In this document: piece after piece, positions 6,703 through 46,016 of the stretch | Numbering within the stretch: position 1 is the first letter of the stretch | How the letters are laid out: each line of letters opens with the position of its first letter | Origin: Luscinia megarhynchos | Lineage: Eukaryota; Chordata; Aves; Passeriformes; Turdidae | Direction of reading: 5' to 3' | Assembly: GCA_034336665.1 (NCBI GenBank) | Contig: CM067592.1 | Coordinates: 39,249,889-39,313,888 of the forward strand | DNA length: 64,000 nucleotides | Program-made: the position numbers and the translations under genes | The notes under the pieces: generated by a model | What the model saw: only the letters and a program-made list of their open reading frames with translations | Databases searched by the model: none | Told to the model about the DNA's origin: nothing

Positions 6703-6802
6703 NNNNNNNNNNNNNNNNNNNNNNNNNNNNNNNNNNNNNNNNNNNNNNNNNNNNNNNNNNNNNNNNNNNNNNNNNNNNNNNNNNNNNNNNNNNNNNNNNN
6801 NN
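6703..6802. other. Assembly gap (100 N)
   Basis: Exactly 100 N characters. A run of this length is a common placeholder for a scaffold gap of unknown size, so distances across it should not be trusted. Open frames that read through it on the minus strand are artefacts of undefined bases. Confidence 0.98.
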
Positions 6803-36794: not shown

Positions 36795-37152
36795 TGTGCC
36801 TAGTTCTGGGCCCCTCACTACAAAATGGGCTGAAGTGTCCGAGTGAATCCACAGAAGAGCAACCAAGCAGGTGAAGGGTCTGGAGCACAAGTCCTGTGAG
36901 GGGCAATCGAGGAATCTGTTTTAGTCTAGCCTGGAGAAAAGGAGTCTCGGGAGAGTCTCTACAACTACCAAAGGAAGTTGTAGCAAGGTGGGTGCCAATT
37001 TCTTCTCCCAGGTGAGAGGTGACTCTTCTCCCATAGACGTGATTAGAGAAAATATCCTTATGTTATGCCAGAGGAAGTTTAACTTGGATATTACAAAAAA
37101 AATTCATTGATAGGGTTGTCAGGCAGTGTAACAAGCTGTCCAGGAAAGTAGT
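36795..37152 (+). mobile_element. CR1 LINE, 5' portion of a copy split by R2
   Basis: From TTCTGGGCCCCTCACTACAA onward the sequence follows the 3' part of avian CR1 ORF2: GAAGAGCAACCAAGCAGGTG, GGAGCACAAGTCCTGTGAGG, TTAGTCTAGCCTGGAGAAAA, TCTACAACTACCAAAGGAAG, then GTTTAACTTGGATATTACAA and GTCAGGCAGTGTAACAAGCT. The match runs to GTCCAGGAAAGTAGT and stops abruptly at 37152, where R2 coding sequence begins. The expected continuation of the CR1 (GAGTCACYATCC...) reappears at 39367. The copy is diverged and does not encode a functional protein. Confidence 0.88.
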
Positions 37153-37153
37153 A

Positions 37154-39020
37154 TTCGTGGACATTGCCAAGGCTTTTGACACCATAAGCCACCAGCACAT
37201 CATACATGCTTTGCAGCAGAGAGAAGTGGATCCCCACATCATCGGTCTGGTGAGAGATATGTACAAAGACACCAGTACTTATATCACCGTGAAGAAAAAC
37301 ACATGCACAGATGAAATCCATTTCCGGGTTGGAGTAAAACAGGGTGACCCGATGTCACCCCTTTTATTTAATCTGGCTATGGACCCCCTGTTGTGCAAGC
37401 TGGAAGAAAGTGGCAAAGGGTACCACCAGGGCCGGAGCAGCATCACGGCGATGGCATTTGCGGATGATCTGGTCCTTTTGAGCGACTCCTGGGAAAATAT
37501 GAATACGAACATCAAGATATTAGAGACCTTTTGCAATCTCACCCGGTCTCAAAGCGCAGGGGAGTAAAGTGCCACGGCTACTACATCAAGCCCGACTAAG
37601 GACTCTTACACCGTCAGCGACTGCGCTGCGTGGACCATCAATGGCACACCCCTGAACATGATCGACCCCAGCGAAATCGAGAAATACCTCGGCTTGCAGA
37701 TTGACCCCTGGACTGGGATAGCAAAATCCAATCTCTCCACAAAACTGGAATACTGGCTTCAGAGAATTGATCAAGCTCCACTTAAACCTCTGCAGAAAAA
37801 TTGATATCCCTCAAAACATACACCATCCCTCGACTGACATACCTGGCTGACCATTCAGACCTGAAAGCCGGGTTTCTGGAAAACCTCGATCAAAAAATCC
37901 GAACAACGGTCAAGGACTGGCTGCACTTACCTTCGTGCACATGCGATGCCATCCTGTACTTTCGAGCCACCGAAGGACGGTGGTTTAGGCATCATCAAAT
38001 TGGCGGGTCTGATCCCCAGCGTGCAGGCCCGGAGACTGCATCGTATCGCTCAGTCTTCAGAGCGAAACCATGAAAGCGTTCCTGGAGAAAGATCACATGG
38101 AACAAGCGTATAAGAAATTGTGGGTACAAGCTGGAGGGAACAGGGAGAAGATCCCATCGATTTGGGATGCACCACCGGGCGAGCGAACCATCTGACAGTG
38201 CAGGCACATCTTGAGTGGGAAGCACCGACCTCGAAAACTAAATTTCCAAAACCTTGCAATTGGAGGAAAAAGCGAATTTAAAAAATTGGACTAAATTAGT
38301 GTCCCAGGGCCGTGGAATTACAAATTTTGAGGGTGATAAAATTAGCAACCATTGGCTACAATATTACAGAAGCATACCTCACAGGGAAGCTCCTCACTGC
38401 TTTACAACTCAGAGCCAACGTATACCCCACCAGAGAGTTCTTAGCTAGGGGGAGGCAAGATAAATACATCAAGGCATGCAGGCATGGCATCGGACATAGA
38501 AAGCTAAGCCCACATCGCCGGCAACTGTCTGGCTTGAGGGCGCCCGGATCAAGAGGCACAATTACATCTGCGAAGTGCTTCTTGAGGAGGCCAAAAAAGA
38601 AGGACTGGGTAGTATTCAAGGAACCGCACATAAGGGATACCACCAAGGAACTGTACAAGCCTGATCTGATATTTGTGAAGGACGCCCGTGCACTTGTGGT
38701 GGATGTGACAGTACTGACTCTGAATCAGCCAAAACATGTCGGCTAGATGATGCGCTCTTGAGGAGAAAGTGAACAAGTACAAGCATTTAGAGACTGAGGT
38801 ACGGAACCTCACCAACGCAAAGGACGTTGCTTTTATGGGCTTTCCCCTTGGAGCGCGGGGGAAATGGCATCAGAAAAACTTTGACCTTTTGGCAACTCTG
38901 GGCCTCTCTAAGTCGAGGCAAGAGAAAATCGCCAGGACTTTATCCACAACAGCGCTCATGTCATCTGTGGACATTGTACATATGTTTGCCAGTAGGGCCA
39001 GAAAATTAGGAAGTTCATGA
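37154..39020 (+). pseudogene. R2 ORF remnant: reverse transcriptase and endonuclease, frameshifted
   Basis: The protein would have primed cDNA synthesis on nicked 28S rDNA. The reading starts inside the RT palm with VFVDIAKAFDTISH (first catalytic Asp region), then GVKQGDPMSPLLFN, then AFADDLVLL with the FADD catalytic pair at 37457-37468. In-frame stops fall at 37565 and 37802. The reading then moves through different frames: TYTIPRLTYLADHSDLKAG (37814 on), a GLGIIKLAGLIPSVQARRLH segment (about 37980-38040), ETMKAFLEKD (38064 on), KNWTKLVSQGRGITNFEGDK (about 38278 on) and LRANVYPTREFLA. A zinc knuckle begins CRHG near 38477; the expected second Cys is Gly. The endonuclease core is KPDLIFVKDARALVVDVTV, with PD at 38660-38665 and the later Asp at 38702-38704. 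The C-terminus, in another frame (38769 on), ends at TGA 39018-39020. There are at least eight frame switches, so it cannot be translated. Confidence 0.85.
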
Positions 39021-39358
39021 ATAGTTAATTTTCTTTCTGTTCGTTGTTTGTAGTGTCCATTTTGTAGTATGTTTGTAATTTTGTACGTTTTTGTAATGTT
39101 TTGCATGTTTCAAGTTATTTAAAAAAAAAAACAAAAAAAACCAAAAAAACCCAAAAAAACACCACCAATAAAAAAGACAGTAGCTAGGGACGTAGGGCAG
39201 CCACAAGCCAGTTAGGTAGCTGATAGTGAGCAGGGACAGGACTTTTTATTTCATAACGCGTCAATTACCACCCGAACTGGACCAATTTACCGGATTTGTC
39301 CAAAGTGGATGGGCCACTTAACCCGGAAAAGGAACATATATTACTTATATGTGTTCGA
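39021..39358 (+). other. Putative R2 3' UTR with internal A-rich tract
   Basis: After the ORF end comes a T/G-rich stretch (TTTGTAGTATG, TTTGTAATTTTG), then an A-rich tract interrupted by C (39120-39177). About 180 bp follow with CpG-bearing sequence (ACGCGTC, CCCGAACTGG, ACCCGGAAAAGG) and an end at ...TATGTGTTCG followed by AAAA. The R2 3' UTR is the RNA segment bound by the R2 protein and ends at the target junction. I assign all of it to R2 because CR1 resumes only after it. The A-rich tract could instead mark an older tail or a separate insertion. Confidence 0.6.
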
Positions 39359-39507
39359 AAAATAGCTGAGTCACTATCCTTGGGAGCATTTAAAAGATGT
39401 GTGAATCTGGTACTGAGGGGCAAGTTACATGGTGAGCTTGACAATGCTAGGTTTATAGCTGGACTTGATTAAAAGTCTTTTCCTACCTGAATGATTCTAT
39501 GATTCTG
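39359..39507 (+). mobile_element. CR1 LINE, 3' portion of the copy split by R2
   Basis: The sequence GAGTCACTATCCTTGGGAGC resumes the CR1 consensus where the upstream part stopped at 37152. It runs through a decayed 'ttcaaaagatgtg...tggact' segment and ends CCTACCTGAATGATTCTATG plus ATTCTG, the CR1 terminal octamer repeats. Together with 36795-37152 it forms one CR1 copy of about 500 bp once the R2 is removed. This fixes the order of events: CR1 first, R2 later. Confidence 0.9.
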
Positions 39508-40274
39508 CTTTGGCACTGAAGTAGTCTTGGAAAGAGGGGGGCTATGAGATTGATTTCACACCTGCTTTAGATCCCGATAAATACCCCAAGAAGCAAACAC
39601 ATCTCATTACTATCTGTGTTCATTGTCTTGTGTTATGAGTCTGCATACTGCATGTTTTAATGTTGTCCATAAAAACACACAGTTTGGAAACAAGAACCTT
39701 GGAAATATTTATTGTCTTTGTCTTCTGATGCCGACATCTTGGCATGTGTTTATATTAATAGATAAACATCTATATCCATTAGAAAATCACACTTCATTAA
39801 AAAACTAATAAATTAAATACAGTATCTGCTTAGTAGCAGATTGCAAACTTACTGCATTGTGCATCCAGCTGATACTTATTCTTCATCTTTCTGCATCTGT
39901 ATCAGAAATCCTCTAATAAATTCCTTTTTTGCGGGTGTCAGCAGATATAGTTTCTATGATTTTTAAAACAAAAACTTGGAGTTCTCCTTCTAGTAGCAGA
40001 GATTAAAATGAGTGTAGAGAAAATTAGTTTTGTGTTAGACCAGTCTGCTGACAATTGTATTATGAAGCAAAAGGAATTTTCCTGAATAAAAAATAGAATG
40101 GCTGACAGAACTACTTCCAAATGTAAGTATATCTAATGGAAGAAACAGACAGCTAAGGTCTTGAAATGTAAATGTAAATAGATATCAAATTTTGTGATTA
40201 GATTTCTATCTGAATGGCACAGGTGTTTTAATAAGACCGTCAATAAAAAAATAAGCTAAATTTCAATAATGAGA

Positions 40275-45402: not shown

Positions 45403-46016
45403 CCCTGCAGCCCATAGGGATCCATGGGGGATGCAGAGATCCACCCACAGCCCATGGGGATCCATGGGGATGTAGAATCCACCCACAGCCCATGGGGATC
45501 CATGCGGGATGCAGAGATCCACCCACAGCCTGTGGGGATCCATGGGGGATGCAGAGATCCACCCACAGCCCATGGGGATCCATGGGGGATGAGAGATCCA
45601 CCCACAGCCCATGGGGATCCATGGAAATGCAGAGATCCACCCACAGCCCATGGGGATCCATGGGGGATGCAGAGATCCACCCACAGCCCATGGGGATCCA
45701 TGGGGGATGCAGAGATCCACCCACAGCCCATGGGGATCCATGGGGATGAGAGATCCACCCACAGCCCATGGGGATCCATGGAAATGAAGAGATCCACCCA
45801 AAGCCCATAGGGATCCATGGGGGATGCAGAGATCCACCCACAGCCCATGGGATCCACAGGGATGCAGAGATCCACCCACAGCCCATGGGGATCCAGGGGG
45901 ATGCAGAGATCCACCCACAGCCCATAGGGATCCAGGGGGATGCAGAGATCCACCCACAGCCCATGGGGATCCATGGGGGATGCAGAGATCCACCCACAGC
46001 CCATGGAGGTGCCCAT
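45403..46016. repeat. 38-40-bp minisatellite within the LTR, about 16 units
   Basis: The landmark CCACCCACAG (or a one-base variant) occurs at 45441, 45479, 45519, 45559, 45598, 45637, 45677, 45717, 45755, 45793, 45833, 45872, 45911, 45950 and 45990. Spacing is 38, 39 or 40 bp, and one more unit lies before the first. Each unit also contains GCCCATGGGGATCC and CATGGGGGATGCAGAGATC. Because the units lack stops in several frames, the array creates long open frames on both strands (minus 45196-46191, 331 codons; minus 45374-46351, 325 codons). These read as GCGWISASPMDPH-like repeats. I regard them as by-products, not genes. Units are nearly identical, so the expansion is recent relative to the host LTR, and copy number is probably variable. 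Confidence 0.92.

Follow-up and report, generated by a model that had tools for sequence, protein, structure and literature searches.

R2 elements serve as a model for site-specific insertion, and tools for gene insertion in human cells are being built from avian R2 proteins. R2Tg, the R2 of the zebra finch (avian A clade), has a 3′ UTR of 325 nt and a printed junction ...TTCGATAAA/TAGCCAAATGCC, in a longer form ...GTTCGATAAA/TAGCCAAATGCC, and R2 RNA is expected to extend into 28S (PMC12222951). Off-targets of R2Tg in human cells match 4-5 nt of downstream 28S, in agreement with a structure that shows 5 bp of primer/template pairing, and upstream their likeness to 28S spans -19 to -25, where T stands out at -20; a motif also lies near -9 (PMC12222951). 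Off-targets of TaGu have little in common beyond the primer-complementary stretch (PMC11371274).

Natural copies of R2 outside 28S are known from five Drosophila species (PMC2718515), the silkworm (PMC10499050) and birds (PMC5035012). Like the copies described here, those of Drosophila (R2 and R1) and the silkworm are stray and often incomplete. Sites of Drosophila R1 reportedly share 4-9 bp with the 28S target and carry 3-14 bp duplications, and annealing of the 28S tail at non-28S sites was proposed; the junction analysis there, however, concerns R1 (PMC2718515), and in the silkworm a single site shows upstream likeness (PMC10499050). The avian R2 copies that have non-rRNA sequence around them are of the same kind as ours, and we found no junction analysis in the available sections of that report (PMC5035012). 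Searches of the open literature found no junction record of natural avian R2 strays. The kind is thus already known, and the junction record presented here is larger than any that we found in print.

An R2 copy within a CR1 repeat

The window, by which we mean the whole 64,000-nucleotide stretch of Luscinia megarhynchos DNA that was analysed, lies within a 74.4-Mb contig (C36:39249889-39313888) and carries the 3′ 2.2 kb of an avian R2 in decayed form (Table 1). Among solved-structure chains, the reverse transcriptase (RT) piece matched R2Tg best (9nl3/9dou, E about 1e-74); turtle R2 (8.5e-46), silkworm R2 (4.4e-20) and L1 ORF2 (about 1e-9) gave weaker matches. The endonuclease piece matched three distinct sequences in the same kind of search, every one an R2. 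An R2-type RT and a restriction-like endonuclease are therefore present, with R2 the best solved-structure match for both. The copy resembles R2Tg in its RT (115 of 136 residues identical), its endonuclease piece and the end of its 3′ UTR, and differs from it in being 5′-truncated, frame-broken and placed in a CR1 instead of 28S. The truncation removed the N-terminal zinc fingers and the Myb region, and several breaks leave a longest open stretch of 148 aa; in the 28S-resident copy L009 an N-terminal stretch of 566 aa is open. A Pfam search with the C-terminal piece gave no match.

Table 1 Features of the R2 copy and its CR1 host (positions in the window)
Feature	Position	Strand	Evidence or remark
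CR1 part upstream of the insertion	36795..37148	+	colinear with provisional CR1 3′ reference, to 361 of 514
GTAGT overlap	37148..37152	+	fits CR1 (GTGGT in provisional CR1 reference) and R2 (GTA GTA = V V)
R2 element, 2210 bp, 5′-truncated, frame-broken	37153..39362	+	protein and DNA alignments
RT piece with FADD	37154..37567	+	protein matches
Endonuclease-motif piece PDLIFVKDARALVVDV; zinc-knuckle part out of frame	38300..38746	+	structure-chain alignment
C-terminal coding piece, ends at stop	38751..39020	+	covered at DNA level by R2 copies of the same genome
R2 3′ UTR, 342 nt	39021..39362	+	aligned copies
A-rich tract within 3′ UTR; length varies between copies	39123..39164	+	
Terminal RNA module	39305..39356	+	GUGG/CCAC stem, possible GGG-CCC pseudoknot, terminal hairpin 39332-39356
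TAGC straight after R2 end, = 28S +1 to +4	39363..39366	+	
CR1 part downstream of the insertion, with CR1-like 3′ end	39367..39509	+	provisional CR1 reference and window repeat

When the R2 is removed, its flanks are colinear with a provisional reference sequence for the 3′ end of an avian CR1 (upstream 7-361, downstream 366-511 of 514). Against this reference the joined flanks score 234.5 and the best of 200 shuffles 22.0; the 3′ half is also backed by a second repeat piece in the window (4204-4126), which matches the 3′ flank at 79.7% over 79 bp. Judged against the provisional reference, the flanks thus read as one CR1 copy. The window copy has no 28S insertion site around it, and its near relatives in the same genome sit in 28S: it is a stray member of a 28S-resident R2 family. 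The original prediction of an R2 inside one CR1, outside 28S, was borne out by the protein matches (R2 being best in a translated search for both RT and endonuclease), the exact 3′ end and the colinear flanks. Its zinc-knuckle domain did not survive the structure-chain alignment, in which that region does not read through in the window copy. Its description of the copy as unusual holds only in part: among the loci retrieved, the genome has 24 or more copies outside 28S whose 3′ junction is readable, and others are reported in Drosophila, silkworm and birds.

At the 5′ boundary GGAAAGTAGT (37143-37152) is followed by ATTCGTGG from 37153. R2Tg has GVVFVD at this break, the window KVVFVD and longer copies of the same genome TGGGTGTAGTATTCG; the last CR1 and first R2 bases therefore overlap by GTAGT. 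At the 3′ boundary (CGAAAAA at 39356-39362, TGAGTC from 39367) the junction reads ...GTTCGAAAAA/TAGC/TGAGTCAC. We call this R2 end exact because the printed R2Tg junction has the same end (PMC12222951). The next four bases are the first four of downstream 28S, and the base after them is T where 28S has C. Four target-like bases thus stand on each side of the R2, TAGT before and TAGC after, which the original prediction had not mentioned. GTAGT can be read as microhomology; alternatively, TAGT and the bases at 39363-39366 may form a target duplication of 4 bp (TAGT/TAGC) that differs at a single position, unless its 5′ copy belongs to R2. At +4 the window has C and the provisional CR1 reference has T (TAGC in place of TGGT, CR1 362-365), so that TAGC may reflect a later change or have been copied from RNA.

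That an assembly misjoin or a recombination brought an rDNA-borne R2 into C36 is extremely improbable, even though the 28S-resident contigs are noisy, with 28S flanks 77-94% identical to those of L009. A misjoin with rDNA is unlikely because the contig is 74.4 Mb long, the sole N run in the window (100 bases) lies at 6703-6802 and no rRNA family in the window reaches the Rfam threshold. Moreover, both joints lie in this contig, the 3′ joint is an exact R2 end with no 28S past TAGC, and independent loci obey the same junction rule (see below).

Nested folding of the terminal RNA module predicts the GUGG/CCAC stem and the terminal hairpin (z -2.72; 3 of 200 shuffles equally stable); the possible GGG-CCC pseudoknot was read by eye after the architecture in PMC12180492. 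Elsewhere in the window, 45408-46006 is a minisatellite in which a 40-bp unit is repeated 15.2 times with 92% matches, and from which long open frames arise on both strands. Searches of viral contigs found nothing with a CR1 motif and confirmed no relative with the RT piece.

Junctions of R2 copies outside 28S

The window's own assembly (1.09 Gb, 1235 contigs) was searched with an R2 body query and a 3′ UTR query, which gave at least 43 and at least 42 match rows, respectively, and 39 regions were retrieved for study. Eight copies have 28S on both sides (L009, L011, L012, L013, L015-L018); L020 has it on the 3′ side; L022 has it on the 5′ side and is followed by N. Among the retrieved loci at least 24 distinct non-28S junctions have a readable 3′ end, that of the window and 23 further ones. 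L030 and L031, which share flanks, were counted as one junction, and the set excludes L026 (eroded 3′ end) and L028 (diverged, part N). Body-query rows outside the set are C132, C447, C936:470, C997:6148, C70, C645, C633, C720, C754, C9:13815423, C858, C33:2289268, C33:2289541 and two in C776; those of the 3′ UTR query are C18:12824254 and C36:45488160. R2 ends of decayed copies were positioned by alignment or by eye.

We compared the 24 junctions with 28S TAGCCAAATG (+1 to +10), taking the window as background. Matches at the ten positions number 19, 19, 12, 15, 11, 11, 6, 4, 4 and 7 (each of 24), with p <0.002 at every position from +1 to +5 and p ≥0.12 from +6 to +10; the match above background is thus limited to the first five bases. 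Since the joint was placed after the A run, A at +1 is disfavoured, and this placement accounts for part of the T excess at that position; +2 to +5 are unaffected. TA begins 18 of the 24 junctions (background 0.078), TAG 11 (0.0138), TAGC 8 (0.00275) and TAGCC 5 (0.00051). With wobble counted, at least four contiguous pairs with UAGCC can form at 13/24 sites, against a background of 0.013; the junction is TAACC in L024, L038 and L039. The downstream 28S match of 4-5 nt known from R2Tg is therefore enriched over the 24 sites, TAGC being the form in the window. In this the copies resemble the rare off-targets of engineered avian R2 in human cells, whose joint likewise coincides with 4-5 nt shared with downstream 28S (PMC12222951, PMC11371274); unlike those, they are natural, germline and built up over time, and T at -20 is found in only one of six sites. 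A TA start is missing from six junctions: L021 and L037 (TAG one base later), L043 (CAGC), L034 (TCAGC), and L030 and L044, which have no TAG even a base or two off the joint.

We rejected the idea that TAGC comes from decayed 28S flanks: when compared with 28S from +7 onwards, the 3′ flanks of the 24 junctions score 7-16 and the decayed control L020 scores 86. The flanks that stand out most from shuffles are those of L021 (score 16; 0/300 as high) and L032 (12; 19/300). Both were kept, L021 for its target duplication and L032 because its alignment is out of register.

Besides the window, five copies have target duplications of 4 to 24 bp, counted from TAG on. In L010 the duplication is TAGCCAGGCTGCAGGCTGAACAAT (24 bp); its last seven bases fit R2 too, and the join may have used homology, since its middle resembles R2 at the break. 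That of L021 is TAGGGAAAATTGAGAG, 16 bp or 18 counting the preceding AC, with the last three bases fitting R2 as well. L019 has TAGAG (5 bp), L023 TAGA (4 bp) and L025 TAGCC (5 bp, then TAAC). Because these duplications place TAG on both sides of the R2, TAG was already in the five targets. No clear duplication was seen in L014, L024, L027 and L034-L044, and in L029-L033 none reached 4 bp when counted from +1.

L021 (C7:23875500-23885000) is a stray R2 with an internal deletion, and by eye its target is CR1-like. It was discarded as a proof of CR1 continuity: its diverged flank aligns across the joint, but shuffled joined flanks score higher (20.0 vs 18.0). Two old R2 3′ ends, L030 and L031, lie on C6 near 320 and 251 kb, respectively, in a duplicated locus whose joint lacks TAG. 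L040, L041 and L042 are stubs of 38-46 nt with an exact R2 3′ end that start beside the pseudoknot; they could be products of aborted reverse transcription and lie at the detection limit. The closeness of some 5′ ends (L019 and the window within 5 nt; L040-L042 at UTR 297-305) was considered as a sign of RT pausing and dropped, the shortest copies being at that limit.

Origin of the stray copies

Very probably, these copies arose at stray nicks whose 3′ ends paired with the 28S tail of R2 RNA and so primed target-primed reverse transcription by R2. We infer the pairing with the RNA tail, the nicking by R2 itself and the order of steps, which for the window would be as follows. An avian R2 RNA ending in read-through 28S (UAGCC...) would have served as template, and a CR1 copy would have been nicked just 5′ of a top-strand TAG. 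The 3′ end of the nicked strand would then have paired with the 28S tail, and cDNA synthesis would have begun at the exact R2 3′ end and halted about 2.2 kb on, inside the RT coding region. Joining of the cDNA end to upstream CR1 would have used the GTAGT overlap or produced a 4-bp target duplication, after which the copy would have decayed, events of this kind recurring in the lineage.

Under tail pairing one expects the 28S match to stop at +5, TAG to form part of the duplications and variants to be compatible with wobble, as found above; the 6/24 junctions that lack a TA start and the copies without clear duplication (L014, L024, L027, L029-L044) speak against it. TAGC might instead not derive from the target at all, if the RNA had ended in UAGC(C) and these bases had been copied together with the rest of the element where an unrelated nick occurred. 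The TAGC of the window, where the provisional CR1 reference has TGGT, would fit such copying, as would the downstream 28S, up to 14 nt long, that accompanies some R1 insertions (PMC2718515). We regard it as unlikely, however: TAG also stands on the 5′ side in five duplications, TAACC and CAGC junctions would require later changes, and the above-background match ends at +5.

On the upstream side, the window carries T at -20 and shares GTAAC at -21 to -17 with 28S; 16 of its 34 upstream bases match, a value that 0.39% of window positions reach. The upstream flank is defined at six sites, a small number (window, L010, L019, L021, L023 and L025). There the matches are 16, 5, 15, 2, 12 and 9 of 34, those at -19 to -25 are 4, 2, 4, 0, 4 and 1 of 7, and T at -20 occurs in the window alone. 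Recognition through T at -20, at first taken from the window, is not claimed, since five of the six sites lack that T, and for the same reason nicking by R2 draws no support from this side. A nick by chance damage or by the endonuclease of another element, with R2 giving only its reverse transcriptase and RNA, would agree with the lack of upstream 28S likeness over the six sites. The window and L019 (15/34), with the GTAAC of the former, point the other way, and on balance we hold a foreign nick to be rather unlikely, though clearly less so than copying of TAGC from RNA.

With stray nicks and tail pairing as the preferred reading, we tentatively suggest, at less than even confidence, that the 28S tail of avian R2 RNA serves as a guide of five bases: over long periods strays would have been chosen mainly by pairing of UAGCC, wobble included, with any available 3′ end and with little or no recognition of upstream DNA. 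If so, the bird genome would reveal what constrains the specificity of gene-insertion tools built on avian R2. At least 24 natural off-targets in one bird provide an evolutionary test of R2 specificity and of how 5′ ends and target duplications form.

Relative age and related copies

A tree of 18 copies, rooted at the midpoint and with several weak nodes, unites the eight 28S-resident copies (support 76) and places most chromosomal copies below them, branching one after another; L020 is placed among the older copies. An R2 subfamily that lost 28S specificity and spread from chromosomal copies would have precedents in the target-unspecific R2 families reported (PMC5035012, PMC7650587). We consider it very improbable here, since the chromosomal copies form no single clade in this tree and nine of nine non-28S copies compared (L010, L014, L019, L021, L023-L027) are 5′-truncated. 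Six 3′ UTR bases, present in R2Tg according to a printed primer (PMC12222951), are missing from 12 of the 18 copies, the window included, and kept in L019, L020, L024 and L027; this scoring leaves out L013 and L015.

Terminal branches measure 0.024 substitutions per site for the window, 0.010 for L023, 0.036 for L019, 0.044 for L027, 0.13 for L024 and 0.0003 for L009, and the node of the window copy has weak support (57). At a songbird rate of 2-3e-9 substitutions per site per year, the age of the window copy would roughly be of the order of 10 million years. As strays outside the rDNA array yield relative dates for the R2 lineage, the copy is a dated fossil, as had been proposed, in the relative sense and no further.

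A single R2 lineage was described in birds (PMC5035012); in PMC13188248 avian R2 is confined to lineage A, with two subclusters, and the section on coexisting lineages names no bird. In 28S of the bird studied here we observed a second R2 family. Two of its 3′ ends, L045 (C333:57330-57620) and L046 (C997:4560-4850), read ...TATATGTTTATTATA/TAGCCAAATGCC. Its RT part L047 (C333:55340-56080) is open over 246 aa and shares 96/138 residues with R2Tg and 92/136 with the window copy, and its terminal RNA module is nearly identical to that of the window copy's family.
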